IMG/VR virus record: IMGVR_UViG_3300028920_001070
Span: 1 to 32,625 of that record
From: a virus
Strand: one strand, 5' to 3'
DNA: 32,625 nt
The position numbers were made by a program, and so were the translations under genes. Each line of letters opens with the position of its first letter. Positions within the stretch are counted from its first letter, which is position 1. The notes below the pieces were generated by a model. It saw only the letters and a program-made list of their open reading frames with translations. It was not told the origin of the DNA and did no database searches. Positions 6,938 to 27,208 of this stretch are shown in pieces.

Positions 6938-7014
6938 TCCAGGAATATATTGCCATAATGTGTGTAATAGCTATTGCACTGATAGTAATTACAGCGAGCA
7001 CTAAAGTAAAGTGA
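6934..7014 (+). CDS. 26-residue membrane peptide
   Basis: The tiny gene starts at ATG 6934, overlapping the previous stop as ATGA, with GGGAGGG at 6921-6927. Its product is almost entirely one hydrophobic span (EYIAIMCVIAIALIVITA) with a basic end. The next gene overlaps its stop. Its place directly after a cell-wall enzyme would suit a holin or a lysis regulator, but size alone gives no proof. Confidence 0.45.
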   Translation: MIQEYIAIMCVIAIALIVITASTKVK

Positions 7015-7583
7015 AGTATATATCATACTACACTATGAATACTCCGTATGAGTGTGATGCTGGCAGACTGGAGATGAGCTTTCTTAATCACAATTTGGAC
7101 TTCTGCATATACCGTGTACAAAACTTTCGTAGCTGGGAGAAAAACTGCCAGTATAAGGCCAAGGTGATCCGGGGAGCTCTGGATGACTTTAAGTGCCCAG
7201 TGGTCTATACAGACATAGACTCTGAGGTCCTGAAGGATCCTGTGCTATTCAACGGCCTGGACTGTGACTTTGCTAGCGGATATATCAAATATACCAAAGA
7301 TATGCCGACCAGGCGCTGCAGCGGTCTGCTATCCGGGACTATGTTTTTTAATTATAATCAGAAGGCCCTGGATCTCCTGGACCGCTGGATAGAAAAGAAT
7401 GAGACTAATTATGAATGGGACCAGAGGAATCTGGAGCATGTACTGGATAAGCGGAAGCTGGATCACTATAAGCTCCCGGACTGTTACTGCAAGATATTCG
7501 ACAGCAAGTGGCAGAAGTGTGATGATCCCGTGATATTGCATCACCAGAAAAGCAGAATATACAAGAGGGTAATAAATGGATAA
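7011..7583 (+). CDS. Nucleotide-diphospho-sugar transferase-like glycosyltransferase
   Basis: The 190-residue protein starts at GTG 7011. Residues 63-77 read PVVYTDIDSEVLKDP, with a D-x-D motif (D68, D70) that binds the metal and sugar nucleotide in GT-A enzymes. SGLLSGTMFFNYNQKALDLL and YEWDQRNLEHVL follow, which are the usual marks of the nucleotide-diphospho-sugar transferase family. It is the first glycosyltransferase of the island and overlaps the genes on both sides. The donor and acceptor sugars cannot be read from the sequence. TTG or ATG alternatives near the start do not change the domain. Confidence 0.75.
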   Translation: MKYISYYTMNTPYECDAGRLEMSFLNHNLDFCIYRVQNFRSWEKNCQYKAKVIRGALDDFKCPVVYTDIDSEVLKDPVLFNGLDCDFASGYIKYTKDMPTRRCSGLLSGTMFFNYNQKALDLLDRWIEKNETNYEWDQRNLEHVLDKRKLDHYKLPDCYCKIFDSKWQKCDDPVILHHQKSRIYKRVING

Positions 7584-8226
7584 ATCAGTAAGTATTGTGA
7601 TCCCGTCTATAAAACCGGACTGTAAAGAGCAAATAAAAGAAATACTCGGATGTAAGTATGGTATCCCTGTGGAAGTGTTCTCAGTGAATAAGCAACAGTC
7701 TGCTGCTACTAACCGTAATGCGTGTATTGACAAGGCTAAGCACGATAAAATAATAATGTGTGATGACGATATAACCGGATACTTTGATCTATGGGCTGAC
7801 TACATGCAGGCTCACTTCTATATTGCAGACTACAGCATTTTATCTGTCCGGCCTATAAGGGCAGACGGATCTTTGTGTCCGCACCTGGGAGATAATAATG
7901 GGCAGCTGGATGATAAGGAGCCTATAGTCCGGGCTTTGCATACAGACCGGACCGGGCTTAATCTCTGTGGCTCAGCAACAATAATGTTTAACCGGAAGGA
8001 TGGTATCCGTTTTGACGAGGGATACAAGGGCGGAGGATGCTATGAGGATACGGATTTCTGTATGCAGTATAAAAAAAAGTGGCCAGATCGGGATATTATG
8101 ATTTGTAATGATGTGAAGCTAATACACAATATGGAGCGTAAGGGCAGAGAGACAATGCCAGGGACTTATGATAATCATAATCATAATCGGGGATATTTTG
8201 CAGAAAAGTGGGGTATTGAGCTATGA
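7576..8226 (+). CDS. GT2-like glycosyltransferase
   Basis: This 216-residue protein is a small GT-A glycosyltransferase. It starts SVSIVIPSIKPD and has SAATNRNACIDKA followed by IIMCDDDITGYF, where D63-D65 form the D-x-D motif. Later IRFDEGYKGGGCYEDTDFC carries the ED motif that usually supplies the catalytic base. The protein at 18055 is a clear paralog, with DDDITGF at the same residue numbers, IRFDEEY and YEDTDF, and a similar histidine-rich end. The two differ strongly in codon use. It overlaps the next gene by four bases. The sugar specificity is unknown. Confidence 0.85.
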   Translation: MDKSVSIVIPSIKPDCKEQIKEILGCKYGIPVEVFSVNKQQSAATNRNACIDKAKHDKIIMCDDDITGYFDLWADYMQAHFYIADYSILSVRPIRADGSLCPHLGDNNGQLDDKEPIVRALHTDRTGLNLCGSATIMFNRKDGIRFDEGYKGGGCYEDTDFCMQYKKKWPDRDIMICNDVKLIHNMERKGRETMPGTYDNHNHNRGYFAEKWGIEL

Positions 8227-12327: not shown

Positions 12328-12343
12328 TACAGGAGCAGAGTAA

Positions 12344-12700
12344 ATGAGTTGGAGAGATGATTATGAGAATACTAAAAGTGTATGGTGGTATGAAAAAAAC
12401 CTTGATGAACTGGAAGCAGAGAATAAAAAACTTAGGGAGATAGTTATGGCTGTTGAAACAAAGTACCCAAATGAAACTAGGCATGAAACAGCACTGCGAT
12501 ATATAAAAGAACGTGAAAACAGACCATATGGTACAGCAAAAAATAATGACACACTTTTAGCAGATATAAAAAAGATAAAGGAGGATAATATGCCAAGAGG
12601 AAAGAACAGAGGAGCTTGTGGTGGTACACCAAGAAAGGATGGTTCAGGTGGAGGAAAAGGAAACAGGGGTACTAGCCGACAGCCGAAGAAAAAGAAATAA
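12344..12700 (+). CDS. Small charged protein, apparently fused to a Gly/Lys-rich peptide
   Basis: This 118-residue frame has two parts. Residues 1-80 are helical and charged (LDELEAENKKLREIVMAVE) and end in LADIKKI, the tail shared with the other small genes here. Residues 83-118 start at an internal ATG 12590 with its own AAAGGAGGA site and read MPRGKNRGACGG followed by Gly, Lys and Arg repeats, ending QPKKKK. The second part resembles small glycine-rich MPRG peptides. The upstream gene may have lost its stop, or the 36-residue peptide may be made separately from 12590. The function is unknown. Confidence 0.55.
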   Translation: MSWRDDYENTKSVWWYEKNLDELEAENKKLREIVMAVETKYPNETRHETALRYIKERENRPYGTAKNNDTLLADIKKIKEDNMPRGKNRGACGGTPRKDGSGGGKGNRGTSRQPKKKK

Positions 12701-12739
12701 GGGTAACCCTTATGATGGAGTGGGGGGTATTATCCCCCC
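12698..12739 (+). other. Two consecutive hairpins between small genes
   Basis: TAAGGG (12698-12703) pairs with CCCTTA (12707-12712) across the stop codon of the previous gene. Then six G (12722-12727), TATTAT, and six C (12734-12739) form a second stem. There is no T-run after either, so termination is doubtful. They may slow ribosome or nuclease progress between cassettes. Confidence 0.4.
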
Positions 12740-12760
12740 CGCTTCAAAGGAGCAGAGTAA

Positions 12761-13027
12761 ATGAGTATAGAAAGCATATTTGAGGAACTTGAAAATATTA
12801 CAATGAATAATGATTATGTTTGCGACAAAATATCAGAATGTAAAAATGCTTATACCGAACTAGAAACCAAGCTGACCAATAAAGACAAAGCCTTACAGCT
12901 TGCACTTGATACGTTGGAATGGTATGGTGATAATGATTTAAGTGGAGATGAAAGATTTTATGATGATGGACAAAAAGCACGTCAATTTTTAGCAGATATA
13001 AAAAAGATACAGGAGCAGAGTAAATGA
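12761..13027 (+). CDS. Small acidic helical phage protein
   Basis: The gene encodes 88 residues from ATG 12761, preceded by the repeated AGGAGCAGAG ribosome site. It is helical and acidic (IESIFEELENITMNNDYVC), with a middle segment KDKALQLALDTLEWYGD like many small phage proteins of unknown role. It ends in FLADIKKIQEQSK. The tail is shared with both neighbouring cassettes. No function can be assigned. Confidence 0.6.
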   Translation: MSIESIFEELENITMNNDYVCDKISECKNAYTELETKLTNKDKALQLALDTLEWYGDNDLSGDERFYDDGQKARQFLADIKKIQEQSK

Positions 13028-13233
13028 AAAAAATAGTTTGTGATATTTGTGGAAATGATATTAATTTTAAAAACTTTGGAAGGAAAAATCAAGTATATGA
13101 ATATAATGGATATAGAGTAATTATAAAAGCAGGTATCAAGTAAGATGCATATATCGGTAGTCATGATATATGTGGTGATTGTATAATAAAGATAATTAAA
13201 GCAGATATAAAAAAGATACAGGGGGAAACATGA
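13024..13233 (+). pseudogene. Zinc-ribbon small gene interrupted by an in-frame stop
   Basis: From ATG 13024 the frame reads MKKIVCDICGNDIN and continues 39 codons to TAA at 13141-13143. After this stop the same frame stays open for 29 codons (DAYIGSHDICGDCII) and ends in ADIKKIQGET, the shared cassette tail. Two CxxC pairs, CDIC and CGDC, would form one zinc ribbon only if the stop were absent. A single nonsense mutation explains this best. The first 39 residues alone carry half a zinc site. Readthrough is possible but unsupported. Confidence 0.6.
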
Positions 13234-13322
13234 TATTTGAAAAAGCTTGCACAATTACAGCATTAATTATTATATGGATCATTATCTTCGGTTCGATTTA
13301 CTTGCTTGAAAAAAAAGCTTGA
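13230..13322 (+). CDS. 30-residue membrane peptide
   Basis: The gene starts at ATG 13230 with GGGGGAA just upstream and overlaps the previous stop as ATGA. Its product is one hydrophobic helix (ITALIIIWIIIFGSIYLL) with a basic tail. It closes the small-gene array, and its TGA lies inside the -35 box of the 13319 promoter. Its role is unknown. Confidence 0.45.
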   Translation: MIFEKACTITALIIIWIIIFGSIYLLEKKA

Positions 13323-13347
13323 CAATTAAAAAAAATAAGATTATAAT
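13319..13347 (+). promoter_or_regulatory. Consensus sigma-70 promoter for the right module
   Basis: TTGACA (13319-13324) and TATAAT (13342-13347) are 17 bases apart, a perfect consensus. The -35 box contains the stop of the 30-residue membrane peptide. The expected start is near 13354, leaving a 187-base structured leader before the gene at 13541. Confidence 0.87.
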
Positions 13348-13357
13348 AATATTAATT

Positions 13358-13495
13358 CGGGAAAAGAATGTGAAACAAATAGTCTTTTTTAATTACATCC
13401 TCAATGAAGGGGTTGCCCCTTGAATATACCTCATCAGTATTCATGTTCCTTTTCCCGGAAATTTGGGCAATCCCTTTATTCAGGAAGTAATTAAA
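13358..13495 (+). ncRNA. Structured leader: 31-position stem with possible pseudoknot
   Basis: Bases 13388-13418 pair with 13465-13495 over 31 positions: 29 pairs (two G-T) and two mismatches. The 46-base loop contains TGAATA (13421-13426) and TATTCA (13438-13443), which form an inner stem. CGGGAAAAG (13358-13366), near the 5' end of the transcript, can pair perfectly with CTTTTCCCG (13449-13457) in the loop, giving a pseudoknot. AAGGGG/CCCCTT (13407-13420) can form an alternative local hairpin that would compete with the long stem. No T-run follows. It may be a regulatory leader, a protein-binding site or a replication structure. The stem is also an inverted repeat in DNA. Confidence 0.6.
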
Positions 13496-13540
13496 TGAAT
13501 TATTGTGAAAAAAAATATTTCGATTCTATAAAAGGGAAAA

Positions 13541-14299
13541 ATGGCAAAATATAGACATATACAAACATTATTTTGGAATGATCCTGAAATGCTTGAAATG
13601 ACACCGGAAGATAAATATTTTTATTTATTTTTATTAACCAATCCCCAAACAACGCAATGCGGAATTTATGAAATCAGCAAAAAACAGATGGAATATTATA
13701 CCGGATATAATCGGGAAACAATTCAAAAATTATTAAAAAGATGGATCGATTATAATAAAATAAAATACAGCGAAAAAACAAAAGAAATTGCTATAAAAAA
13801 TTGGTTAAAATATAATAATTCTGAATCCCCAAAAGTGAAAAATTGCATTGAAGAAGAATTAAAAAAGGTAAAAGATAGATCATTAATAGACTATATAAAC
13901 AGTATAGATACTGTATATATAGACTCGGGGGAAAAAGAAAAAGAAAAAGAAAAAGAAAAAGAAAAGAAAAAGAAAAAGAAAAGCGATTCAAAAATAGAAT
14001 ATCGTGATAATATTTTATTAACTGAAAAAGAATATAATACTTTATTAATAAAATATGGTAAATCAAATATAAATAAAATATTTGATAAATTATCCTTTTA
14101 TAAACTAGCACATGGAAAACAATATAAATCCGATTATGGCGCAATTAATCAATGGGTTATTGAATCTTTAAAAATTGAACCATTAACACCTATTGATCAG
14201 GAACAGCAAAAGAAAAAAAAACTTGAAATAAAAATACAAAAAATAATGATTGAAAAGGGAATATCATATGCCGATGCGCATAACATGTTAATAAAATGA
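13541..14299 (+). CDS. Phage replication-type protein (second copy of the replication gene class)
   Basis: The 252-residue protein has an N-terminal helical DNA-binding region (FWNDPEMLEMTPEDKYFYLF, CGIYEISKKQMEYYTG, ETIQKLLKRWIDYNKI) typical of phage replisome organisers. Residues about 131-148 are a Lys/Glu run from DNA repeats. The C-terminal domain has LLTEKEYNTLLIKYG and QYKSDYGAINQWVI, clearly homologous to the end of the protein at 3335. The N-terminal domains differ. It starts at ATG 13541 after AAGGG and is first in the operon driven from 13319. The existence of two such genes in one window suggests two replication modules. Confidence 0.7.
   Translation: MAKYRHIQTLFWNDPEMLEMTPEDKYFYLFLLTNPQTTQCGIYEISKKQMEYYTGYNRETIQKLLKRWIDYNKIKYSEKTKEIAIKNWLKYNNSESPKVKNCIEEELKKVKDRSLIDYINSIDTVYIDSGEKEKEKEKEKEKKKKKKSDSKIEYRDNILLTEKEYNTLLIKYGKSNINKIFDKLSFYKLAHGKQYKSDYGAINQWVIESLKIEPLTPIDQEQQKKKKLEIKIQKIMIEKGISYADAHNMLIK
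13931..13984 (+). repeat. GAAAAA hexamer tract inside the second replication gene
   Basis: Ten G residues at spacings of 6,6,6,6,6,5,6,6,5 create an uninterrupted polypurine run of GAAAAA units. Whole hexamers keep the reading frame; the two five-base units shift the translated pattern from EK to KK. The tract sits between the N- and C-terminal domains, the same place as the iterons in the 3335 gene. It may be a slippage site or an unusual origin element. Confidence 0.6.
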
Positions 14300-14697
14300 A
14301 AAAACAAACAATGGATGAAATCTTTTATCATGAAACCCGCAAGGTTCCGGATATAAAAAAGTGCGAATACTGTGAACTTGAATCCCCGCATGATCCGCAT
14401 GAAATATTCTGCGGGCATGGGATCCGGGAAATTTCAATTGAATATAAATTGATTGTATTTGTATGCAGAAAATGTCATGATTTATTACAGCATGGTTATA
14501 AAACCGAAGATGAAAAAAGAGATCAACAACGTAAATGTTTTAAAATTTTGGGGATCCCGCAAATGTATATCCCGGTATATCACATTATTAATAAAAATAA
14601 ATCCGATTGGGATGATACTGATTATATGATAATGAAATCTGTTAAAAGTATTATTAATAAAAAACGGTCAAAAATTGATTATATATTATGCAAATAA
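14296..14697 (+). CDS. HNH-like phage protein
   Basis: This 133-residue protein shows a zinc pattern typical of HNH-related phage proteins: KKCEYCELESPHDPHEIF, then GHGIREISIEYKLIVFVC, RKCHDLLQHGY and EKRDQQRKCFKILG. The ordered CxxC, HxxF, RxxS, CxxCH and Q motifs resemble phage HNH or DUF968-like proteins that act in recombination. The catalytic His is less clear than in the 2887 protein, so activity is uncertain. It overlaps the replication gene as ATGA. Confidence 0.55.
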   Translation: MKKQTMDEIFYHETRKVPDIKKCEYCELESPHDPHEIFCGHGIREISIEYKLIVFVCRKCHDLLQHGYKTEDEKRDQQRKCFKILGIPQMYIPVYHIINKNKSDWDDTDYMIMKSVKSIINKKRSKIDYILCK

Positions 14698-15917
14698 ATA
14701 TTGATAAAATATTAAAGCCCTGGTATTTTACAGGATTTAGCGTATTATTAACAATACTTGTTTTTATTATGTTTATTTCAATCAGATCAAATTATCGGGA
14801 TGATCTTAAAGATATCAGATCCGAAGATAAATATTTCAGGGGAAGGATTGCGGAATATGTTGTTATACCGGAACGGGAAAAGCTTTTAAAATATACCGAT
14901 TATTATTATAAACTGATTGGGTGGTATGGGGAAAAAGTTCAATCCGGAAGGGGGATGAACAAATATCAAAAAACTGATTTTGTATTATATGCATACAATT
15001 ACGAAAAATGGATCGGTTTACCGCATTTTTATTTTATAAGCAAAGCAAAAATTGAATCAAGTTTTAATCCAAAAGCAACCGGAGCATTGGGGGAAGTAGG
15101 ATTATTTCAGCATATGCCCACCGCCGATGTTATTGGAACCGCATATATGGAATTAAATAACCTTCGCATTAATCAACCTTGGCTTGCCCGTAAACTTGAA
15201 TTTATTTTTAATTCGGAACAGGATTTAACGGATCCGATTAATGCCTTGAAGGTTGAAGCATTGCTTTCATCATATTACAAGCGGAAGTTTAATAATGAAT
15301 TAATATATTGGGTTTCCGCTGTTCATTGGGGGGAAGGAAGAATTGCAAAATTATATCGGGATAAATTAATGCCGATTTATAAACATTTTAATTTTACAAG
15401 CAGGGAAACAGCGGAAAAATATTCCCGATCCCCTTTAATGTATTATTATGTATGGGCGGAACATTATCATGCCTTTATGAATTTTCGCAAGGATGTGAAT
15501 GTTGATAAAGGTTGGATTGATATATACAAATCCGAATGCAGTAAACAAGAAAAACTATTTATCGAAGGATATAAATTTTTTCAAAAGGGAATGAATTATC
15601 ATGATCAGATAAAAAAGGAAATGGAAGATGTTAAAAAGCTTGAATTAAAATATTACGATTTGATAAAAAAAGGTGACAAGGAATATAAAAAACTATTAAA
15701 GCTGATGAAGCAGGGCAAATTTAAAAACATAGCAAAGGAAATCTTTATTCCCGGAAGGATCTTTTTTAATCAAATCTTGGATGAAATATCCCGGGAATCG
15801 AAGGAAAACAACAGGCGGTTTATTGCATTTATTCAATTATTTATTATAATAATAATTGGGTTTTTAACAGGATTTGGAGTATATTGCATTATTAAAAAAA
15901 TACTTAAAAGGATATGA
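14688..15917 (+). CDS. Membrane-anchored lytic transglycosylase
   Basis: The 409-residue protein has an N-terminal membrane span (FTGFSVLLTILVFIMFISI, about 14-32). A lytic transglycosylase domain follows, with KAKIESSFNPKATGALGEVG (E123 as catalytic acid) and LFQHMP (139-144). VSAVHWGEGRIAKLY and a conserved Tyr-rich segment YSRSPLMYYYVWAEHYHAF complete the domain. Then come a coiled-coil region (about 280-350) and a C-terminal membrane span (FIQLFIIIIIGFLTGFGVYC). The enzyme cleaves peptidoglycan between MurNAc and GlcNAc. Spans at both ends are unusual for a phage endolysin and might give membrane-tethered control of lysis. It overlaps the previous gene by 10 bases. Confidence 0.82.
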   Translation: MQINIDKILKPWYFTGFSVLLTILVFIMFISIRSNYRDDLKDIRSEDKYFRGRIAEYVVIPEREKLLKYTDYYYKLIGWYGEKVQSGRGMNKYQKTDFVLYAYNYEKWIGLPHFYFISKAKIESSFNPKATGALGEVGLFQHMPTADVIGTAYMELNNLRINQPWLARKLEFIFNSEQDLTDPINALKVEALLSSYYKRKFNNELIYWVSAVHWGEGRIAKLYRDKLMPIYKHFNFTSRETAEKYSRSPLMYYYVWAEHYHAFMNFRKDVNVDKGWIDIYKSECSKQEKLFIEGYKFFQKGMNYHDQIKKEMEDVKKLELKYYDLIKKGDKEYKKLLKLMKQGKFKNIAKEIFIPGRIFFNQILDEISRESKENNRRFIAFIQLFIIIIIGFLTGFGVYCIIKKILKRI

Positions 15918-16085: not shown

Positions 16086-16424
16086 ATGATTATTGCAATT
16101 GATTTTGATGGAACAATTGTTGAACAGGAATTTCCGAACATTGGAGCAATAAAGAAAAACGCAAAAGAAGTAATTAATAAATTGCATGAAGATGGGCATT
16201 ATATAATTATATGGACATGCCGTTATACAAATTCTGATTTACGATCAATGATACAATTTTTAATTGAAAACGACATTTGGTATGATTCAATAAATAATAA
16301 TTGCGATAATTTATCATTTGTACCGCATCCAAAAATATACGCTGATGTTTACATTGATGATCATAATCTTGGCGGGGTTCCTGATTGGTATGAAATATCT
16401 AAAATTATATGTAAAATGACATGA
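16086..16424 (+). CDS. HAD-superfamily phosphatase-like protein
   Basis: A 112-residue HAD-fold protein. IAIDFDGTIVEQEF places the catalytic motif DFDGT at residues 6-10. IIIWTCRYTNSDL gives motif II (T near 46), and PKIYADVYIDDHNLGG gives the late acidic motif (DD). Small phage HAD proteins of this form act as nucleotidases or sugar phosphatases. Placed between lysis and glycan genes, it may dephosphorylate a sugar intermediate. The family is clear, but the substrate is not. Confidence 0.85.
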   Translation: MIIAIDFDGTIVEQEFPNIGAIKKNAKEVINKLHEDGHYIIIWTCRYTNSDLRSMIQFLIENDIWYDSINNNCDNLSFVPHPKIYADVYIDDHNLGGVPDWYEISKIICKMT

Positions 16425-16531
16425 ATTACGAAATATTAAGATTATCAACGGGAAAGCTACAATTTGAAATATCTAAAAAACATTGGGTTATAAAAATATA
16501 TTTTAAAATATGGAATTATTTTAATAAATGA
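16421..16531 (+). CDS. 36-residue protein of unknown function
   Basis: The short gene begins at ATG 16421, overlapping the HAD stop, and ends with TGA overlapping the next ATG. Its product is basic and aromatic (KKHWVIKIYFKIWNYFNK). The double ATGA coupling supports a real translated gene linking its neighbours. No function or domain is recognised. Confidence 0.45.
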   Translation: MNYEILRLSTGKLQFEISKKHWVIKIYFKIWNYFNK

Positions 16532-17235
16532 AATATTCTGAAGTAACATTAACAATTACAACATCAAAGCGATTCAATCTGTTTAAAAAAAGCATTATGT
16601 CATTTTATGATAGATGCAAAGATTGGGATTTAATAAAAAATATTATAATTGTTGATGATGCATCAAGCAAAACAGATATTGAAAACATGAAGCAATTATT
16701 ATCCGGTATAAAAAAAGATATACTTTTTATATGCAAGGATAATCCGGATCATGTTCAATCGTTAAATATTTTATTTGACAAGGTAAAAACCGATTATGTA
16801 TTTCATCTTGAAGATGATTGGAATTTCATTCAGCATGGAAATTTTATCCGGGAAGGATTTGAAATAATGGCGGATAATGATAAAATAAAAACGGTTATTA
16901 TGCGGAACTGGATCAAACAGGGAAACAAGGATTTTCACCGTTGCAAAACAAAAACCGGGCTTGAATATCATATACATCATTATAATTTTAAAAAACACAT
17001 CCCCGGGGAACTGAATACATATCCCGGATACAGCTTGAATCCTTCATTGCAAAATATGAAACATATAAAAGATATAATCGGCAAGTTTACAAGAACAATC
17101 AATTTTGAATTACAATTTGCTTTAAGATACTGCAACATCGGAACCGGATTTTTAACCGCAATGATGGCGAATGATTATTGTGAACATATCGGCACAAATA
17201 TAAATGCGTATGCATTGAATAATACGAAACCATGA
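16528..17235 (+). CDS. GT-A glycosyltransferase-like protein
   Basis: The 235-residue protein starts with VTLTITTSKRFNLFKKSIMS, like GT2-type enzymes, and has NIIIVDDASS (VDD near 42) and YVFHLEDDWNF, where E95-D97 form the acidic metal-binding motif. GYSLNPSLQNMKH follows near the middle. The protein at 19504 aligns along its whole length (TTSKRF, SEDDWNF, LTLNPSL, EHTGT), so the two are a paralog pair. It overlaps both neighbours as ATGA. Its sugar donor is unknown. Confidence 0.75.
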   Translation: MKYSEVTLTITTSKRFNLFKKSIMSFYDRCKDWDLIKNIIIVDDASSKTDIENMKQLLSGIKKDILFICKDNPDHVQSLNILFDKVKTDYVFHLEDDWNFIQHGNFIREGFEIMADNDKIKTVIMRNWIKQGNKDFHRCKTKTGLEYHIHHYNFKKHIPGELNTYPGYSLNPSLQNMKHIKDIIGKFTRTINFELQFALRYCNIGTGFLTAMMANDYCEHIGTNINAYALNNTKP

Positions 17236-17798
17236 AAAAATATAATATAATATATGCTGATCCGCCTTGGCGTTATAATGACAAATTAGGATGTGATAAT
17301 GCAAAAATGGGAGCAGTTGAAAATCATTATAATACGATGACATTAAAAGATATATGTAATTTAAAGATTCAAGATATATGCGCGGATGATTGTGTTTTAT
17401 TTTTATGGGTTACGATGCCCTTATTAAATATATCATTTGATGTGATTAAATCATGGGGGTTTATATATAAAACATGTGCTTTTACTTGGATTAAATTGAA
17501 TCCGAAAAGCAAAACAATTTTCAAAGGCATTGGGCGTTGGGTTCAAGGAAATGCGGAATTAATTTTGTTAGCAACAAAAGGAAAACCGAAAAGAATAACA
17601 AAGTCGATGGGGCAAGTCGTGATGGCGGAAAGGGGGAAGCATTCAGTTAAGCCGGATATTTTTAAAGATAAAATAACACAATTGATGGGGGATATACCTC
17701 GCATTGAATTATTTGCCCGCCCTTGGTCAGAATTGCAAAATAAATATGAAGGTTGGGATGTATGGGGGAATGAAGTTGAATCTGATATTAAATTATGA
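17232..17798 (+). CDS. MT-A70-family adenine-N6 methyltransferase
   Basis: This 188-residue protein is a compact MT-A70 member. YNIIYADPPWRYND places DPPW at residues 10-13. NHYNTMTLKDICNL and VLFLWVTMPLLNISFDVIKS match the family core, and RWVQGNAELILLATKG and KPDIFKDKITQLMG complete it. ELFARPWSELQNKYEGWDVWG is the usual C-terminal end. Family members methylate adenine N6 in DNA or RNA. In a phage the natural role is DNA protection. It sits inside the glycan island, overlapping the upstream GT. Confidence 0.9.
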   Translation: MKKYNIIYADPPWRYNDKLGCDNAKMGAVENHYNTMTLKDICNLKIQDICADDCVLFLWVTMPLLNISFDVIKSWGFIYKTCAFTWIKLNPKSKTIFKGIGRWVQGNAELILLATKGKPKRITKSMGQVVMAERGKHSVKPDIFKDKITQLMGDIPRIELFARPWSELQNKYEGWDVWGNEVESDIKL

Positions 17799-17809
17799 AG
17801 GATTAAATT

Positions 17810-18055
17810 ATGCAGATAGAAAAATATGAAACACAGCCGATTAAAGTAGTTTGTCATTGCGAAAAATGCGAAGAAGGATATATGAACGCAACGGGAAGAA
17901 CCCGCAAGGTTATATCAAAAATTGTTCATTTACATAAATGCAATCGATGCGGTATATTTGCGGAACTTGATTCATCGTTTCCGAAATTGGAATTCCCGAA
18001 GGGCAAGCGGATCCCTGATGAAGAAGAAAATACAATAAATCCGGAAAATAACTGA
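17810..18055 (+). CDS. Small zinc-ribbon protein
   Basis: The 81-residue protein starts at ATG 17810. VVCHCEKCEEGYMNATG has two or three Cys for one half of a zinc site, and HKCNRCGIFAEL the other half about 30 residues later. The tail is acidic and disordered (IPDEEENTINPENN). It resembles small phage zinc-ribbon proteins of unknown function. Its stop overlaps the next start. Confidence 0.65.
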   Translation: MQIEKYETQPIKVVCHCEKCEEGYMNATGRTRKVISKIVHLHKCNRCGIFAELDSSFPKLEFPKGKRIPDEEENTINPENN

Positions 18056-18717
18056 TGATTATACCTGATATCTGTATTCCAACAAATAAAAAAAGATCTG
18101 AAATTGATGATCTTATAAAAGATATAAAAGCAAACACCCCGGAATTCAACCGGATCATTGCATCTTGTCAACCGTTATCAGCATCGAAAAATCGGAATTA
18201 CTGTTTATCATTTGCAAATTCTGATATCATTGTCATGATGGATGACGATATTACAGGATTTTATCCTGGTTGGTTAACGAACTTTATACATCCCATGTTG
18301 GAAGATCCATTAATTATTATTTGTTCCGCCCGATTGCTTGATAAAAACCGTAAACGAATTAACAATATGGGGATGATCGGCGGATCCGGGGAATTGCAGG
18401 AAATCCCCGCTTCCTTTAATCACAAAGGAACAGGATATAAAAGAGTTACAACGGCTTGCATTGCAATCCGCAAAAATCATATTCGATTTGATGAAGAATA
18501 TATTAAATCCGGTTATGAAGATACGGATTTTATGAATCAGATTTCCCGGGCGTTCCCGGCAAGCAAATTTATTGTTAATAACAATTGCGAATTGATACAT
18601 TTGAATCATATGCAGGGGCAAGATGATCGGGAAGCATGGCAACATAATCACGATCATTATTGTAAAAAATGGGAATTTGATACGGTTGCGAAGGATCAAA
18701 AATGCTGGGCGAAATGA
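18055..18717 (+). CDS. GT2-like glycosyltransferase (paralog of the 7576 gene)
   Basis: The 220-residue protein has IIPDICIPTNKKRSE, SASKNRNYCLSFA and IIVMMDDDITGFYPGW, with D63-D65 as the D-x-D motif at the same positions as in the 7576 protein. IRFDEEYIKSGYEDTDFMNQ contains the ED catalytic motif. The final WQHNHDHYCKKWEF also matches the ending of the paralog. Its codons follow the AT-rich right-half style, so the pair diverged in different settings and is not a recent copy. Confidence 0.85.
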   Translation: MIIPDICIPTNKKRSEIDDLIKDIKANTPEFNRIIASCQPLSASKNRNYCLSFANSDIIVMMDDDITGFYPGWLTNFIHPMLEDPLIIICSARLLDKNRKRINNMGMIGGSGELQEIPASFNHKGTGYKRVTTACIAIRKNHIRFDEEYIKSGYEDTDFMNQISRAFPASKFIVNNNCELIHLNHMQGQDDREAWQHNHDHYCKKWEFDTVAKDQKCWAK

Positions 18718-19481
18718 TGAATCAGATCATTGAAGGTGATTGCCTGGATGTTATGAAGGATATTCCGGATAAAAGCATAGATATGATATTATGCGATTTG
18801 CCTTATGGCACTACAGCCTGTTCATGGGATGTTGTTATTCCTTTTGATTTATTATGGGAACAGTATAAAAGAATAGTTAAGGATAATGCTTGTATATGTT
18901 TATTTGGAAGTCAGCCATTTACAACGGATTTGATAATGAGCAATAGAAAAATGTTTAAGTATGAAATAATATGGTGTAAGGAAAGGGGACAGGATTTTAT
19001 CAATGCAAAAAAAAGACCATTAAAAGCACATGAAAATATATTGATATTCGGAAATAAAATAAAATACAATCCTATTATGGAAAAAGCAAAAAGGGAAAAT
19101 ATTAGGAAGGTATCTGATTTAAATCAACCATCAGAAGTATATGGCATTAATAAAAAAGCTAGTAAAGACTACGACATAGAAAAGCGTTATCCGAAAAGCT
19201 ATATACAATATTCAAGTGGTAGGGCAAGAGACAAAGAACACTCCGCACAAAAACCAGTTAAGCTATTTGAATACCTTATAAAAACATACACCAATGAAAA
19301 TGATATTGTATTAGATAACTGTGCAGGATCAGGAACTACAGCTATTGCCTGTTATGAAACTAACAGAAAATATATATGCATAGAAAAGGAAAAAAAATAT
19401 TGCAACATTGCCCGGAAGCGATTGCAAGAAAAAAAGGATTGTTATGGATTATTACATAACGAACAAATGGCAACCTTGTAA
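18702..19481 (+). CDS. DNA methyltransferase (paralog of the 5515 gene)
   Basis: The 259-residue protein has IIEGDCLDVMKDIPDKSIDM followed by DLPY (32-35), then GSQPFTTDLIMSNRKMFKYE and KKRPLKAHENILIFGN. AGSGTTAIACYETNRKYICI lies near residue 208. The motif order is beta class, and DLPY replaces DPPY as in a known phage subgroup. It should modify phage DNA. The start could also be ATG 18714 or 18717; 18702 has AAGGAT six bases upstream. The first 30 and last 50 residues are close to the 5515 enzyme, with an unrelated target region between. It overlaps the GT upstream by 16 bases. Confidence 0.88.
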   Translation: MLGEMMNQIIEGDCLDVMKDIPDKSIDMILCDLPYGTTACSWDVVIPFDLLWEQYKRIVKDNACICLFGSQPFTTDLIMSNRKMFKYEIIWCKERGQDFINAKKRPLKAHENILIFGNKIKYNPIMEKAKRENIRKVSDLNQPSEVYGINKKASKDYDIEKRYPKSYIQYSSGRARDKEHSAQKPVKLFEYLIKTYTNENDIVLDNCAGSGTTAIACYETNRKYICIEKEKKYCNIARKRLQEKKDCYGLLHNEQMATL

Positions 19482-19503
19482 AATAAAGATGGAAAGTTTT
19501 AAA

Positions 19504-20196
19504 ATGAAATATCCTTCAATAACCTTTACTTGCACAACATCAAAACGATTTGACCTATATGTTCAAATGATGATATCGTTTTTTTATTCATGCCTTGACA
19601 TGGATTTGATTGAAAATTATATAATCGTTGACGATGGAAGCCCGATAAATGAAATACACGAAATGGGAAGATTATTCCCAAAAACAAATGTAATCAAGAA
19701 TACAAAAGGCGGTCAATTAAACAGTATTAAAATGATCCTTGATTGCGTTGATACTGAATATATGTTTCATTCAGAAGATGATTGGAACTTTTTGATTCAA
19801 GATCATTATATCCGCAAGGGATTTGATATCATGCATACGGATTCTAGGATTAAACAGGTAACGTTGCGATTTTGGGAATGCATGTATATCAATGATGATG
19901 GGCTTGAATATCGCATGCATAATTATTCCCCGATGGACATCAAGGAAGATTATGATATAATTAAATATTCTGATTGTAATTATGGCGGATTGACATTGAA
20001 TCCTTCATTGATTCATGTTCCAACATTTAAAGAATGTATGAAAAACGTTCATCAAGAAAACAGCGAATCAAGAATTTGGGATAAAAAACTTTCAATGAAT
20101 TATTGGAATGCAGGATATAAAAGGGCAAATCTGAACGATGAATATATTGAACATACCGGAACATATGATTCAAGATATCCCAGGATAAACGCATGA
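19504..20196 (+). CDS. GT-A glycosyltransferase-like protein (paralog of the 16528 gene)
   Basis: From ATG 19504 (GGAAAG upstream) the protein has 230 residues. MKYPSITFTCTTSKRFDLYV matches the start of the 16528 protein, and NYIIVDDGSP and YMFHSEDDWNFL carry the acidic motifs. GGLTLNPSLIH and EYIEHTGTYDSRYPR match the paralog further on. Longer in-frame starts at 19408, 19444 and 19489 overlap the methyltransferase and do not align, so 19504 is preferred. The specificity is unknown. Confidence 0.75.
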   Translation: MKYPSITFTCTTSKRFDLYVQMMISFFYSCLDMDLIENYIIVDDGSPINEIHEMGRLFPKTNVIKNTKGGQLNSIKMILDCVDTEYMFHSEDDWNFLIQDHYIRKGFDIMHTDSRIKQVTLRFWECMYINDDGLEYRMHNYSPMDIKEDYDIIKYSDCNYGGLTLNPSLIHVPTFKECMKNVHQENSESRIWDKKLSMNYWNAGYKRANLNDEYIEHTGTYDSRYPRINA

Positions 20197-20681
20197 AAAA
20201 AATAAAATTATCACAAAATCAATTTGCATTAGTTGATGATGAAGATTTTGAAAAATTAAATAATAGGAAATGGAGTGCGAAATTTGATAATCATACAAAT
20301 AAATTTTATGCATATGGGCATCTTGATAAAAAGAATAATTATAAATCTATTTTAATGCATCGTTTTATAATGGGGTTCCCTACAAATAAACAAATAGATC
20401 ACATAAATAAAGATACACTTGATAACAGAAAAATTAATTTAAGAATTGTAACAAATGCGCAAAATCAAGCTAATCGATGGAAAAACAAAAAGTGTTCATC
20501 AAAATATAAAGGAGTTATTTATCTTTCAAAAATTAATAAGTGGTATTCAAGAATATGTTTTGCTAAAAAATCATATAATATAGGTATTTTTAATTCTGAA
20601 GAAGAAGCCGGGCTTGCATATAATAAAAAAGCAAAAGAATTATTTGGAGAATACGCTTGTTTAAATAAAATAAAGGTGTGA
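20193..20681 (+). CDS. HNH homing endonuclease with AP2-like domain
   Basis: This 162-residue protein has the order of a freestanding phage homing nuclease. LMHRFIMGFPTNKQIDHINK and DTLDNRKINLRIVTNAQNQA form the HNH core with the two key histidines and the closing Asn. An AP2-like DNA-binding domain follows (YKGVIYLSKINKWYSRICF, NIGIFNSEEEAGLAYNKKAK). Such enzymes cut intron-less or unoccupied copies of their site and spread with the DNA around them. It lies inside the glycan island between a GT and a radical SAM gene, overlapping the GT stop as ATGA. Confidence 0.9.
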   Translation: MKKIKLSQNQFALVDDEDFEKLNNRKWSAKFDNHTNKFYAYGHLDKKNNYKSILMHRFIMGFPTNKQIDHINKDTLDNRKINLRIVTNAQNQANRWKNKKCSSKYKGVIYLSKINKWYSRICFAKKSYNIGIFNSEEEAGLAYNKKAKELFGEYACLNKIKV

Positions 20682-20684
20682 TAT

Positions 20685-21635
20685 ATGTTCAAAAATAATT
20701 ATATTAGTGAGATTGAATTAAATACCTGTAATTTATGTAATGCATCATGCATCATATGTTCTGAACCGCATGGATGCGATAATGATCGGTATATGGAACC
20801 CGAAGTATTTTATACACTATTAAAACAATTAAAAGATGTTGAAACAAATATAATTCAAACTTCCGGTTTAGGTGAAACCTTTATGAACCCGCATTTCCTT
20901 GAATATGTTCATGAACTTCACAAAGCTTTTCCGAAAACCCCGAAATGGATTTACAACAATTTTTCTATATTCACCCCGGATTTAATCAACACCGTATTGA
21001 ATAACAAATACTTTGAAAAGATCCATACAAGGATTGATTCGCTTGACAGTTATATTTTTCAAATGTCATCAAATTTAAGATATAGTGAAGTATTTGAAAA
21101 CCTTGATTATTTTTTATCCGTTAATGAAACAACCCCGCTTGTTATTTTATATAACAACATAAAAGATTATTATAATCGTTGTAAATCCGTAACGGGTAAA
21201 AGACCGATCCGGGATCGTTTTACGGATGCAGATCTTGAAAATGTTCCGGATGAACAGCAAGCAATCACAAATTATGTAAAAAGTAAAGCGAAACGCCCGG
21301 AACTTGTTACGGTATGCAGGATCAATCATGGTTTATGGGGCGAACGTTATCGGAACGATATACAGCATAATCCGGATTATCCTTGCCCGAAAATAGAAGT
21401 GATAAAAAAAGTATGTTGGATTTATCCTAACGGGGATATTGGAATGTGCTGTTATGAAGATCGGCAATCCCCTGAATTTTCACTTGGGAACATTACGATT
21501 GAACATATTCTTGATATATTTTACGGCGAAAAGCGGAAGAAGGCGATTGAAAATATTAAAAATAATGTTTATAGAATTTATCCTTGCAACAATCCCAGGT
21601 TGTGCGGGTTCGGCGATGGAGTAGAATCGAAATGA
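20685..21635 (+). CDS. Radical SAM protein with SPASM-like C-terminus
   Basis: The 316-residue protein opens with EIELNTCNLCNASCIICSEP; C18, C22 and C25 form the CxxxCxxC cluster motif of radical SAM enzymes. TSGLGETFMNPHF matches the GGE-like SAM-binding strand, with Leu-Gly replacing the usual Gly-Gly. The C-terminal region has CPKIEVIKKVCWIYPNGDIG, then MCCYED and SLGNITIEHILDIF, typical of a SPASM domain with extra iron-sulfur sites. It begins after AAGGTG. The substrate is unknown; within this island a sugar or small molecule, or a peptide, is possible. Confidence 0.85.
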   Translation: MFKNNYISEIELNTCNLCNASCIICSEPHGCDNDRYMEPEVFYTLLKQLKDVETNIIQTSGLGETFMNPHFLEYVHELHKAFPKTPKWIYNNFSIFTPDLINTVLNNKYFEKIHTRIDSLDSYIFQMSSNLRYSEVFENLDYFLSVNETTPLVILYNNIKDYYNRCKSVTGKRPIRDRFTDADLENVPDEQQAITNYVKSKAKRPELVTVCRINHGLWGERYRNDIQHNPDYPCPKIEVIKKVCWIYPNGDIGMCCYEDRQSPEFSLGNITIEHILDIFYGEKRKKAIENIKNNVYRIYPCNNPRLCGFGDGVESK

Positions 21636-22186
21636 TCAATCCCGATGTATTTTTGATCCATTTTTCAAAAGGAAACACAACGTTCGGGGATGCGCAAATA
21701 TTACATAAATTCGCAGAAAATAGATCTTTAAAAGTTGAAATCGGTACAGCATACGGAATCGGGGCAATGATCCTTTCAATTCATGGCGGAACAGTTTACA
21801 CGATTGATAATCATACATTTTATTCTGATTATAAAAAGCCGAAAATAAAACATAAAATAATAAAAGATTATCTTGATTTTTTTACAAGCGGAAGGATAAA
21901 ATCAATTATTCAAGATAGCGTAAAAGCATCGGAATCATTTGACGATGAAACAATTGAATTATTATATATCGATGGCGGGCATTCATATAAGCAAGTAAAA
22001 GCAGATTTTGAAGCATGGTTTCCGAAGGTCAAAACTGATGCGGTTATAATATTTCATGATGTATGTTTCGATTGCCCCGGGGTTAATCGTTTTTATAAAC
22101 GGTATTTGAAGAAGCTGAAAACGATCCGGGAACTTGTTCAAAAATCAGAATTTGAAACTTCAATCAAAGTATTTGTAAAGGGGTAA
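21632..22186 (+). CDS. Class I SAM-dependent methyltransferase
   Basis: From ATG 21632, overlapping the radical SAM stop, the protein has 184 residues. VEIGTAYGIGAMILSIHG is the SAM-binding loop, VYTIDNHTF the acidic strand, and LLYIDGGHSYKQVKADFEAW and DAVIIFHDV are typical of the Methyltransf_24 group (cephalosporin hydroxylase-like). Members methylate small molecules and sugars. Its placement between radical SAM and GT genes supports a role in modifying a glycan. The gene is in the AT-rich right-half codon style. Confidence 0.82.
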   Translation: MINPDVFLIHFSKGNTTFGDAQILHKFAENRSLKVEIGTAYGIGAMILSIHGGTVYTIDNHTFYSDYKKPKIKHKIIKDYLDFFTSGRIKSIIQDSVKASESFDDETIELLYIDGGHSYKQVKADFEAWFPKVKTDAVIIFHDVCFDCPGVNRFYKRYLKKLKTIRELVQKSEFETSIKVFVKG

Positions 22187-22187
22187 A

Positions 22188-22985
22188 ATGAAAATAATTG
22201 CATTATATAAAGTATGGAGCGGTCACGAATTATTACAAGCATCCGTTGAATCAATTTATAATCATGTTGATAAAATTGTTATATTAACCTCAAATGTTTC
22301 CTGGATCGGCGGGAAAGATAATCCATCAATCCCCGTTATTGAAACATTAATCGGCAAAAAATATCCGGGCAATAAAATCATTCATATAAACTATGATGAA
22401 CCGAATCAAGTGAAGCATTGCATGTATGCTTATCGTTATATACAAAACAATTTTGATTGTGATTATATAATGCTGATTGATTCCGATGAATTATGGGATA
22501 CGAATTCATTAAAATATGCAAAGCAATATATACAGCAGGGCCCGCAATGCAAAGCATACCGAACATCAATTTTTACATATATTAAAAGCCCCTTTTATCG
22601 TATTGAACCCCCGGAACCATTAAAGCCCGTATGTTTTATAAAACCCGATCTTCCGGATATGGGGCTTGAACCGCGCGGATGTGCTATAAAACCATATAAA
22701 ATAATTAATGAAGTATATTATCATCATTTCGTATTTGTGCGGGAACATTTCAACAATGTACTGGAAAAGCTGATTCAATCGCATGTATCCGAAAAGCAAC
22801 CATATGAAAATATGGCTGATTGGATCCCGAATGTATGGAATAAAATGCCATTATGCCGAAGGAATTTTCATCCCGCAATCGGATTCGGTACGCATTGGAA
22901 ATCGATTAAACAAGTAAAGCTTGAAGATCTTCCGGAAGTATTGCATCATAACCGCTTCCCGAATATATTAAAATGGGGCAAATAA
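22188..22985 (+). CDS. GT2-like glycosyltransferase
   Basis: The protein has 265 residues. MKIIALYKVWSGHELLQASV and IVILTSNVSWIG give the first strands, and DYIMLIDSDELWD places D98-x-D100 as the D-x-D motif. Later HHFVFVREHFNNVLEKL and VLHHNRFPNILKWG complete a form seen in uncharacterised GT2-type enzymes. It is likely to transfer a sugar from a nucleotide donor, with both substrates unknown. It follows the methyltransferase by one base. Confidence 0.78.
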   Translation: MKIIALYKVWSGHELLQASVESIYNHVDKIVILTSNVSWIGGKDNPSIPVIETLIGKKYPGNKIIHINYDEPNQVKHCMYAYRYIQNNFDCDYIMLIDSDELWDTNSLKYAKQYIQQGPQCKAYRTSIFTYIKSPFYRIEPPEPLKPVCFIKPDLPDMGLEPRGCAIKPYKIINEVYYHHFVFVREHFNNVLEKLIQSHVSEKQPYENMADWIPNVWNKMPLCRRNFHPAIGFGTHWKSIKQVKLEDLPEVLHHNRFPNILKWGK

Positions 22986-22989
22986 TTTA

Positions 22990-23610
22990 ATGAATTGGAT
23001 TAATAAATTAAAACAAGATTTGAAAATTAAATTGATTGGGATGCAAAAGGAAAATATTTGTTTCGTATTGATCCCAAAAAATGCGCATTTATCAATGCAA
23101 TACACCTTAGAAAATCAAGGATTCAAAAGGGGTTTTATTAAAAATATATCCGGGAAAATGAAATATTCTGCAATCATCCGGGATCCCGTCAGCAAATGGG
23201 CAACGGGATTTGCAACATATTTGACTAATTGCGTTAATAATAAAGTAATAACGGAATATAATGCATATAAAATATTTAATAGTTGGGGTTGTATAGATTA
23301 TATTTTTAAAATTATTGAATTTGATATCCATACGGTCAAGCAACGATCAATTATAAATCAATTCGTTAATCAGGATATAAAATTATTTGATATTAAAAAC
23401 CTTGATCCGTTAATTAAATATTTTAATGAAAACGGGGTAAATATAACCGGAATTGATACGGCGCATATAACTGAAAACTTTGATCATGAAGGATTCCATT
23501 ATAAAATATATAAAATTATTAATGAATTCCTGTTTTCGCATCAAGCATATTGCGATTTAATAAAACAATATTATTCTAATGATTTAAAATTATATAAGGG
23601 GTTACAATGA
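22990..23610 (+). CDS. Sulfotransferase-like protein
   Basis: The 206-residue protein has the two PAPS-binding elements of carbohydrate sulfotransferases. ICFVLIPKNAHLSMQYTL (IPKNAHLS at 28-35) matches the 5'-phosphosulfate loop, and AIIRDPVSKWATGF (R64-D65-P66) matches the 3'-phosphate motif. FDIHTVKQRSIINQF follows, like the DxHxxxQ segment of the Sulfotransfer_2 group. It would add sulfate to a sugar. No PAPS-making gene is seen, so the host must supply the donor. It overlaps the next gene by four bases. Confidence 0.7.
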   Translation: MNWINKLKQDLKIKLIGMQKENICFVLIPKNAHLSMQYTLENQGFKRGFIKNISGKMKYSAIIRDPVSKWATGFATYLTNCVNNKVITEYNAYKIFNSWGCIDYIFKIIEFDIHTVKQRSIINQFVNQDIKLFDIKNLDPLIKYFNENGVNITGIDTAHITENFDHEGFHYKIYKIINEFLFSHQAYCDLIKQYYSNDLKLYKGLQ

Positions 23611-24602
23611 GTCCGGAACCAACAAAAAGATTTGTTATTGAACCATCGCTTGAATGTAATATTAAATGCAAATTTTGTTATCATTTGCATCGGTTCGATG
23701 AATGGCGCAATACCAGGAAATCACTTGATGAAATGAAAACGATTATTGATCAAGGAAAAGAGCGGGGAAATAATTACATGGATATCACAGGCGGGGAGCC
23801 GTCAATATATCCCTATATAACCGATTTGATTCAATACGGATTATCAAAAGGAATCAAAGCTTGTATAATAACCAATGGGATCATTGGCAAGGAAAAAGCG
23901 CAACAATTACTTGATGCGGGCATTGATGATTTTCTTGTTTCCCGGCATGGGTTATCGGAAACGCATAATCATATCACAAATTCAAATCATGCATATGATA
24001 TTCAATTAAAGTTCCTTGATTATATAAAGCAATTTATGCAATTCCGGTTTAATTGCGTTATTAATCAATTTAATCAATTTGAACTGGTTTCAATGATAAA
24101 AGAATTGATTCCTTATAAGCCCAAAATTGTTAATTTTATCAATTTCAATCCGCATCATGAATGGAAAAATAAAGAATTAAAAGCATCGGAAGTGGTTGCC
24201 GATCTTGTAAAGGTCGAACCATATTTGAATGAAGCAATTGATCTTCTTGAAGATGAAGGCATCGGGGTAAACGTTAGATATTATCCCATGTGCCGGATCA
24301 TGGAACAGCATCGCAAATATATCTGCAATGATCTTCATGTTATGTTCGATCCATATGAATGGGATTATTCAACAACGCCGAAAACATACGATAAATATAA
24401 AGCATGGGGCGTTGCAACATCAAATGCGAATGAAGAAAAAAGCAATCCTTGCTGTTTATGTGATTTACAAGATATATGCGGGGGGATCAACAAGCATTTT
24501 CACAGGATATCAAATCGATTGCATGGGGAACAATGCTTGATTCAGCGGATTGATCCCATTATACACCGAAAAGATTTTATGTATTATCGGCGGGATATAT
24601 GA
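23607..24602 (+). CDS. Radical SAM enzyme
   Basis: The protein has 331 residues. EPSLECNIKCKFCYHLH contains C17, C21 and C24 as the CxxxCxxC cluster, and YMDITGGEPSIYPY has the GGEP motif at 62-65. IKACIITNGIIG and FLVSRHGLSETHNHI follow the radical SAM barrel pattern. A late cysteine set (NPCCLCDLQDICGGINKHF and EQCL) suggests an additional iron-sulfur cluster. It has a good match to the fold but no specific family. It is the last member of the right-hand modification island, before the packaging genes. Confidence 0.87.
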   Translation: MSPEPTKRFVIEPSLECNIKCKFCYHLHRFDEWRNTRKSLDEMKTIIDQGKERGNNYMDITGGEPSIYPYITDLIQYGLSKGIKACIITNGIIGKEKAQQLLDAGIDDFLVSRHGLSETHNHITNSNHAYDIQLKFLDYIKQFMQFRFNCVINQFNQFELVSMIKELIPYKPKIVNFINFNPHHEWKNKELKASEVVADLVKVEPYLNEAIDLLEDEGIGVNVRYYPMCRIMEQHRKYICNDLHVMFDPYEWDYSTTPKTYDKYKAWGVATSNANEEKSNPCCLCDLQDICGGINKHFHRISNRLHGEQCLIQRIDPIIHRKDFMYYRRDI

Positions 24603-24898
24603 ATGAAATGATCAAAGTTCAATATGAAGGGGCAAACGGGCATGAAGTATGTTTCGATGATACAAAATTAATATTTAATCATAAAGATATAAAAGAAGTT
24701 CCCGCTTCCGTTGGGCAATTTTTATTGCATAGATATCCGGAAAACTTTCAATCAGCGAATTTAAAAGGGAAGCTTTTTCGATTAATTAAAGATAAAATCA
24801 AAGGGGGTTCCGATGGCATTCAAGAACCAAAAGAAGAAGAAAAAATCCAAAAAAACAAGGTAACAAAAAAGAAAATCACCCGAAAAAAAAGGGGATAA
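24599..24898 (+). CDS. Small basic phage protein upstream of terminase genes
   Basis: The 99-residue protein starts at ATG 24599, overlapping the radical SAM stop, or possibly at 24608. Residues 1-67 are a small domain (IKVQYEGANGHEVCFDDTKL, EVPASVGQFLLHRYPENFQS) of a type found in phage head or connector regions. The tail is Lys and Glu rich and ends KVTKKKITRKKRG. Location at the head of the packaging genes suggests a structural or assembly role. The family is not certain. Confidence 0.5.
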   Translation: MNEMIKVQYEGANGHEVCFDDTKLIFNHKDIKEVPASVGQFLLHRYPENFQSANLKGKLFRLIKDKIKGGSDGIQEPKEEEKIQKNKVTKKKITRKKRG

Positions 24899-27179: not shown

Positions 27180-27208
27180 TTGACAAATCTAAAATATATG
27201 ATTATAAT
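27180..27208 (+). promoter_or_regulatory. Consensus sigma-70 promoter for the head operon
   Basis: TTGACA (27180-27185) and TATAAT (27203-27208) are separated by 17 bases, again a perfect match. The preceding gene ends at 27170, so this is the only one of the four promoters whose -35 box does not overlap a stop codon. Start near 27215 leaves about 60 bases before the portal gene. Confidence 0.87.

Follow-up and report, generated by a model that had tools for sequence, protein, structure and literature searches.

Why should a phage carry, between its lysis and packaging genes, two different radical S-adenosylmethionine (SAM) enzymes together with enzymes that would transfer sugars, methyl groups and sulfate? 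The question is raised by positions 16086-24602 of a viral record (IMG/VR IMGVR_UViG_3300028920_001070), which we analysed over its whole length of 32,625 bases (hereafter the window) and which has terminase, scaffold and major capsid genes at its right end. The original prediction took this stretch as a single modification island that may make an unusual glycan or a modified peptide or nucleotide. As far as the inventory goes, it stands: all the open reading frames (ORFs) that it listed are present on the + strand, with families mostly as annotated according to Pfam, and they lie between a lytic transglycosylase gene and the genes for TerL, scaffold and major capsid, as claimed (Table 1); the list had missed an HNH+AP2 endonuclease gene. 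We find that a core of this island recurs as a unit in other phages. This core is 16528-24602 minus three genes (MT-A70, N6_N4 DNA methylase and HNH), and the HAD gene that precedes it is likewise excluded; the core comprises two radical SAM enzymes (rSAM1 and rSAM2), GT2-type glycosyltransferases (GTs) of three families (GTa, GTb and GTc), a Methyltransf_24 protein and a sulfotransferase-like protein (22990, after its start position). We give an even chance to the reading that it is a phage-borne glycan cassette, combining radical-SAM sugar chemistry, O-methylation and sulfation, and most likely acting on virion proteins.

The first evidence for a unit is co-occurrence. A scan with rSAM2 and two of its relatives gives 23 viral loci, and scans with rSAM1 and with a closer rSAM2 set add more; because the scans back-translate conserved peptides, remote members are under-counted. 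Single-sequence scans of viral contigs with rSAM1 and with the GTc gene at 22188 gave no match, and it was alignment-based scans that found their relatives. Close rSAM2 relatives, defined by at least 36% identity, are found in 12 phage contigs after dereplication (the window, L002, L004, L005, L006, L032, the L034-L037 group, L039, L044, L045, L046 and L047; L042, a relative of L032, is truncated), and we profiled their gene families with hidden Markov models built from the window and its relatives. rSAM1 is present in seven of these 12 (the window, L004, L005, L032, the L034 group, L039 and L047) and occurs only in contigs that also bear rSAM2. When rSAM1 alone is used as bait, as was done twice, each contig recovered also carries rSAM2 and both the GTa (18055 type) and GTc (22188 type) families. 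The proposal that the two radical SAM enzymes belong with the GT, methyltransferase and sulfotransferase genes is thus borne out; independent occurrence, named in advance as the sign of unrelated accessory genes, is not what we see for the core, since rSAM2 and both GT families accompany rSAM1 in 7/7 dereplicated contigs. GTa is found in 10 of the 12 contigs and Methyltransf_24 in nine (five of the seven with rSAM1), with a Methyltransf_23 in its place in L032. Sulfotransferases occur in five contigs, all of them rSAM1-bearing (5/7), and are of three types (recognised by motifs in the window and L004, by PF13469 in L032 and L034, and by PF00685 in L047), which suggests that sulfation is a selected step.

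The genes of the core also diverge together. Across the seven contigs, rSAM1, rSAM2, GTa and GTc have concordant matrices of pairwise identity, with r 0.88-0.94 (exact Mantel p 0.0008-0.0022), an agreement that leans on two close pairs: without the closest pair r is 0.54-0.83 (p 0.006-0.053), and without both, when too few contigs are left, p is 0.075-0.125. The rSAM2 relatives in these phages are 39-56% identical. In the stretches compared outside the cassette, no structural proteins are detectably common to the window, L004, the L005/L039/L044/L045 group, the L032/L034 group, L006, L046 and L047, and we therefore conclude that the cassette has moved between phage backbones or is very old. 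That unrelated accessory genes became neighbours by chance is highly improbable as an account of the island. It describes well the HAD, MT-A70, N6_N4 methylase and HNH genes, which lie among or beside the core and are independent of it, but the core recurs as a unit in every rSAM1 contig, with fusions, and its co-occurrence and correlated divergence contradict a chance cluster. The same four genes have no relative in the other cassettes, which rules out the whole of 16086-24602 as one pathway and removes the HAD protein, MT-A70 and DNA methyltransferase from the scheme first proposed; they seem to be accessory and anti-restriction genes in their own right.

What, then, might such a core make? 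Gene fusions offer a first indication. Four Deltaproteobacteria contigs (L026, L027, L028 and L029) encode rSAM2 and a GTa domain as a single protein, which continues in L026 into TPR repeats; L030 contains the end part of such a protein. Phage L006 likewise has rSAM2 joined to a GT2-like domain. GTc is fused to Methyltransf_24 in L005, L039, L046 and L047. Upstream of the L026 fusion lie genes for flagellin (PF00669, PF00700) and for FlaG-, FliD- and FliS-like proteins (the latter three by sequence reading) and then a methyltransferase-TPR-like protein, surroundings in which flagellin glycosylation genes are usually found; the first domain of the next gene product downstream is radical SAM/SPASM-like, with a weak relationship to rSAM1 (22 bits). 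Among 297 Desulfobacterota-group genomes, a close rSAM2-GTa fusion occurs in one, the already-known case, and there are four more distant relatives. Given the fusions of rSAM2 and of Methyltransf_24 to GTs, the flagellin neighbourhood and the position in structural operons described below, we infer that a glycan is the best supported of the three products originally offered, and a peptide or nucleotide less so. Two further observations concern distant rSAM2 relatives. One of the more distant bacterial relatives (L059, 74-2361) directly adjoins a sulfotransferase-like gene (sequence reading), an echo of the phage pairing. Five large phages (L007, L008, L010, L014 and L015), each with a remote rSAM2 relative, pack numerous radical SAM genes into 20 kb, in islands with NDP-sugar (nucleoside diphosphate sugar) epimerase-, DegT-, deacetylase-, transketolase- and amidinotransferase-like genes (sequence reading).

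The position of the cassette bears on its target. In L005 its flanks are phrog_617, a major head protein, and phrog_442, a head-tail adaptor; in L032 it lies 3' of a head protein (phrog_771/phrog_264) and is followed by small head-tail-like genes, a layout identical in L034; in L004 a TerL-like gene stands on one side of it and the portal gene (phrog_156) on the other. It follows the major head protein in L045 and L006, homologues of the L005 head protein gene in L044 and L039, and a tape-measure-like gene in L046 (sequence reading), and in the window it stands directly before the terminase genes. The flanking head, portal and adaptor genes were identified by PHROGs in L004, L005, L006, L032 and L045, and by Pfam and PHROGs in the window. 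GT and methyltransferase genes within a structural block are the mark of cassettes of the Corndog/Che8 kind, and it is this position, together with the Corndog precedent discussed below, that leads us to favour virion proteins as the target. Could the cassette instead remodel a host surface glycan (lipopolysaccharide, capsule or flagellar) during infection and so keep competing phages from superinfecting the cell? The GT-rich islands of pelagimyophages have been interpreted in this way, and radical SAM cassettes occur there (PMC7029224); the remote rSAM2 relatives of large phages lie in islands whose NDP-sugar epimerase-, DegT- and amidinotransferase-like genes are near tail-fibre-like genes, and the bacterial rSAM2-GTa fusions are found in surface or flagellar glycan loci. 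The cassettes, however, contain no flippase, no lipid-carrier GT and no clear transmembrane protein, and their repeated capsid or head-tail location implies late expression, when a change of surface helps least, so that we regard host-surface remodelling as unlikely, though the strongest of the alternatives. Conversion of the O-antigen in particular is disfavoured because clear membrane proteins are lacking: the cassette GTs and their neighbours include no clear transmembrane protein, carrier or flippase gene, and, as to a Gtr-type seroconversion cassette, they have no clear transmembrane stretch and no GtrA/GtrB Pfam match.

Under the virion-glycan reading, GTa, GTb and GTc would assemble a short sugar chain in the cytoplasm of the infected cell, Methyltransf_24 would O-methylate it, and 22990 would sulfate it with 3'-phosphoadenosine-5'-phosphosulfate (PAPS) from the host. 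rSAM2 and rSAM1 would use SAM-derived radicals on a sugar carbon beyond the reach of ordinary enzymes, either on a nucleotide sugar or on the transferred sugar, with dehydrogenation, epimerisation, deoxygenation or decarboxylation as candidate reactions. The order of these steps, like the substrate and product, is our proposal. The most likely acceptor would be a virion protein of the capsid, decoration or head-tail class.

How well do the two radical SAM enzymes fit such a role? rSAM2 has the CX3CX2C motif (C17, C21 and C24) and passes the PF04055 cut-off; rSAM1 has CX3CX2C, with its SPASM domain over the cut-off and PF04055 just under. In rSAM1 this motif and C234, C255, C301 and C307 are invariant (seven sequences), and in rSAM2 C229 and a CX2CX5C motif (C282, C285 and C291) are invariant in 26/26 relatives; from the invariance of these four cysteines we predict one auxiliary 4Fe-4S cluster in rSAM2, which has no match to PF13186 (SPASM/twitch). 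BlsE (cytosylglucuronate decarboxylase, PDB 7vob), a radical SAM enzyme that acts on a sugar-nucleoside, is its best match both in a profile search (E 4e-24, over profile positions 17-173 only) and, by VIA-align, for its AlphaFold model (predicted local distance difference test, pLDDT, 91; Z 19.6, root-mean-square deviation 3.6 over 256 residues). The match is consistent with sugar chemistry, without being proof of it. rSAM2 and BlsE share about 22% identity, the sequence match is confined to the N-terminal core, and the NVRYxPxC and D(P/I)Y(E/D)W signatures of rSAM2, like its C-terminal cysteine pattern, are its own; nor is rSAM2 a BlsE-type sugar decarboxylase by TIGR04466 (59 bits against an equivalog cut-off of 400), being related in fold only. 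The same enzymes might instead act directly on amino acid residues, either in a virion protein or in a small peptide, in the manner of SPASM maturases, with the GTs, methyltransferase and sulfotransferase working on the same polypeptide. The SPASM domain of rSAM1 fits this, as do its best solved-structure match, which is to the peptide-modifying YydG and is weak (E 0.015), and the presence of SuiB and SkfB among the top fold matches of rSAM2; yet no conserved small ORF stands beside rSAM1 or rSAM2 (among ORFs of at least 60 amino acids), and the fusion partners of rSAM2 are GTs rather than peptide-binding domains. We judge peptide modification quite unlikely. The rSAM1 of L034 (5762-7774) and L036 (9998-12010), like that of L035 and L037, is interrupted at the SPASM cysteine pair by an intein-like insertion of ~350 residues, which begins C-VEDTEVF and ends SSN before C-YADHQ; the near relative in L032 is free of it. 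By sequence reading, terminase-like and portal-like proteins (L004 3-2804, L005 1-2880) have intein-like insertions as well.

The pathway might also hypermodify the bases of phage DNA, making a sugar-modified nucleotide that evades restriction. Phage GTs are able to add sugars to DNA, DNA methyltransferases and an MT-A70 are encoded in the window, and viperin and MoaA, which act on nucleotides, are among the best fold matches of rSAM2. A DNA target is nevertheless disfavoured by the lack of base-modifying genes: the proteins scanned in the window, which is a fragment, include no thymidylate synthase/hydroxymethylase homologue and no deoxynucleoside monophosphate kinase. The DNA methyltransferases, moreover, do not travel with the cassette, and DNA bases are not known to bear O-methyl and sulfate groups together; we consider this explanation very unlikely.

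The transferases of the window differ in how clearly they can be assigned. Four GT-type enzymes had been claimed; 18055 is over the Glycos_transf_2 (PF00535) cut-off, and 16528, 19408 and 22188 are themselves below it or have no match, with 19408 and 22188 drawing support from relatives. The 16528 gene has relatives in L004, L032, L034 and L047. Its second copy, 19408, is 39.7% identical to L004 5371, which is barely under the cut-off (21.8 bits), and 40.6% to L032 8653, an alignment from which its true start is likely the ATG at 19504; 22188 has relatives at 35-46% identity, of which the one in L047 clears the cut-off (25.1 bits). The sulfotransferase-like call for 22990 likewise holds in part. 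The protein has the motifs PKxAxxS...IRDPVxxW...YxxDLxLY, of which the PAPS-binding-like PKxAxxS and IRDPVxxW are partly to largely kept in L004 9385 (32%), and its counterparts in the L032 and L034 cassettes (PF13469) and in L047 (PF00685) pass Pfam sulfotransferase models; 22990 itself has no Pfam match even at E 5 and no NCBIfam or PDB sequence match, and AlphaFold models (two sequences) reach a pLDDT of 42, too low for a fold assignment.

Several points weigh against a virion-protein glycan. Both the glycan and the modified protein are predictions from the genes, and 22990 is a putative sulfotransferase by its motifs only. Viperin (Z 19.2) and the peptide maturase SuiB (Z 19.1) are tied with BlsE within 1 Z, so that fold leaves sugar and other substrates unseparated, and we reject the fold search as a guide to the substrate of rSAM2; peptides, moreover, are frequent substrates of SPASM enzymes, the class to which rSAM1 belongs. 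In L002 and L047 no obvious structural genes lie near rSAM2, and flagellin adjoins only one of the four bacterial loci. In the window, a strong promoter-like site with a perfect sigma-70 consensus (TTGACA, 17, TATAAT) at 27180-27208, just 5' of the presumed portal gene, suggests that the genes from the portal onward may form a separate transcription unit.

Table 1. Positions in the window of the genes discussed (cut-offs are those of the Pfam models).
Feature	Position	Strand	Remarks
Nucleotide-sugar transferase-like gene	7011 (within 7011..8226)	+	First modification island; cassette family
GTa paralogue	7576 (within 7011..8226)	+	First modification island; cassette family
Lytic transglycosylase	14688-15917		Upstream of island
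HAD	16086	+	PF08282; BT0820-like
GTb, first copy of 19408 family	16528..17235	+	Glycos_transf_2 21.7 bits, under cut-off 23.3
MT-A70	17232	+	Pfam 90 bits
GTa, GT2 glycosyltransferase	18055..18717	+	Glycos_transf_2 29.7 bits, over cut-off 23.3
N6_N4 DNA methylase	18702-19481	+	111 bits
GTb, second copy, GT2-like	19408..20196	+	No own Pfam match; relatives support
HNH+AP2 homing-type endonuclease	20193-20681		
rSAM1, radical SAM/SPASM	20685..21635	+	SPASM PF13186 28.4 bits (cut-off 21.5); Radical_SAM 26.1 (cut-off 29.5)
Methyltransf_24, TylF-like, small-molecule O-methyltransferase type	21632..22186	+	63.9 bits (cut-off 26.3); PDB match 6g7d, E=1.2e-5
GTc, GT2-like, D-S-D motif	22188..22985	+	Weak Pfam GT match
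Sulfotransferase-like protein	22990..23610	+	Motif-level assignment
rSAM2, radical SAM	23607..24602	+	Radical_SAM PF04055 68.9 bits (cut-off 29.5)
99-amino-acid ORF	24599..24898	+	Start overlaps rSAM2 stop by 4 bases; precedes packaging genes; no PHROG match
TerL	25233		Downstream of island (Pfam/PHROGs)
Scaffold	30287		Downstream of island (Pfam/PHROGs)
Major capsid	31003		Downstream of island (Pfam/PHROGs)

The cassette genes mostly overlap their neighbours by a few bases. To the left of them the window holds a first modification island (7011-12327), which may feed the same glycan, given that two of its families are common with the cassette and that it has a formyltransferase and a weakly PseF-like cytidylyltransferase. 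The product of its 7011 gene is 36% identical to L005 11002, the gene directly after rSAM2 in that phage. The formyltransferase and cytidylyltransferase genes adjoin at 11033-12327; PseF, which the latter weakly resembles, is a pseudaminic acid enzyme, and the pair could possibly belong to a pathway for an N-formyl amino-sugar or a nonulosonate. GC content falls sharply at 12000-14000, from ~0.44 on the left (first island) to 0.26-0.35 on the right (cassette), which suggests a mosaic junction. Two replication initiators (3335-4045 and 13541-14299) differ in their N-terminal domains (Phage_rep_O versus DnaD/DnaA-like) and have a common C-terminal segment (LLTEKE..., YKSDYGA...W), and two N6_N4 DNA methyltransferases (5515-6234 and 18702-19481) are related, their first and last segments being closely alike.

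Separate descriptions exist of GT islands in phages, of the glycosylation of virions and of phage islands rich in radical SAM genes (PMC4351075, PMC11256854, PMC7029224, PMC2853527). In the openly licensed literature we found no report of rSAM1, rSAM2, GTa, GTc and a methyltransferase, often with a sulfotransferase, inside structural gene blocks, and nothing that joins radical SAM, flagellin, a glycosylation island and a GT; for sulfotransferases and phage structural genes, only the Corndog precedent emerged there. The phage collection searched holds no isolate with the union of rSAM1, rSAM2, GTa, GTc and methyltransferase: the isolated phages gave no rSAM1 or GTa relative, and only remote rSAM2 relatives (Campylobacter phages, ~26%). 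Virion glycosylation has so far been shown in few phages, and a cassette with two radical SAM enzymes and a frequent sulfotransferase, recurring in unrelated backbones, points to a sugar chemistry of virus particles without description in that literature. Tentatively, and with less confidence than we have in the virion-glycan reading, we raise the possibility that a sulfated, methylated, radical-SAM-dependent virion-protein glycan made by a mobile cassette, with the same rSAM-GT pair in bacterial flagellin glycosylation, represents a new branch of protein glycosylation.

Among the closest known systems, one of comparable layout is gp35-gp38 of the Cluster O mycobacteriophage Corndog, where an O-methyltransferase and GTs lie between portal and protease and capsid modification has been proposed (PMC4351075); as in the cassette, these genes are inside the virion structural operon, but no radical SAM enzyme or sulfotransferase is reported among the four. 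In mycobacteriophages Che8 and Rita, phage-encoded GTs are thought to decorate the major capsid proteins (Freeman et al. 2023, cited in PMC11256854), and GTs aimed at virion proteins are what we propose here. Those glycans are reported from experiment, whereas ours is predicted from genes. In the relative Maravista the GTs are situated close to the end of the genome, and no radical SAM enzyme or sulfotransferase is mentioned. Radical SAM cassettes in the host-recognition clusters of pelagimyophages (PMC7029224) and radical SAM genes in Campylobacter phages CP220/CPt10 (PMC2853527) resemble ours as radical SAM-bearing phage islands, and remote rSAM2 relatives (25-29%) occur in radical SAM-rich large-phage islands and in CP220/CPt10; they differ in having many radical SAM paralogues in large phages, outside the head gene block and without the GTa/GTc/rSAM1 set. 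The rSAM2-GT2-TPR fusions of Deltaproteobacteria (L026-L029) are cellular genes that encode one fused protein, with a TPR tail in several, yet they combine the same rSAM2 and GTa families and once stand beside flagellin, FlaG-, FliD- and FliS-like genes. They offer a concrete enzyme pair for purification, and the flagellin link suggests a mechanism that virions and flagella may have in common.

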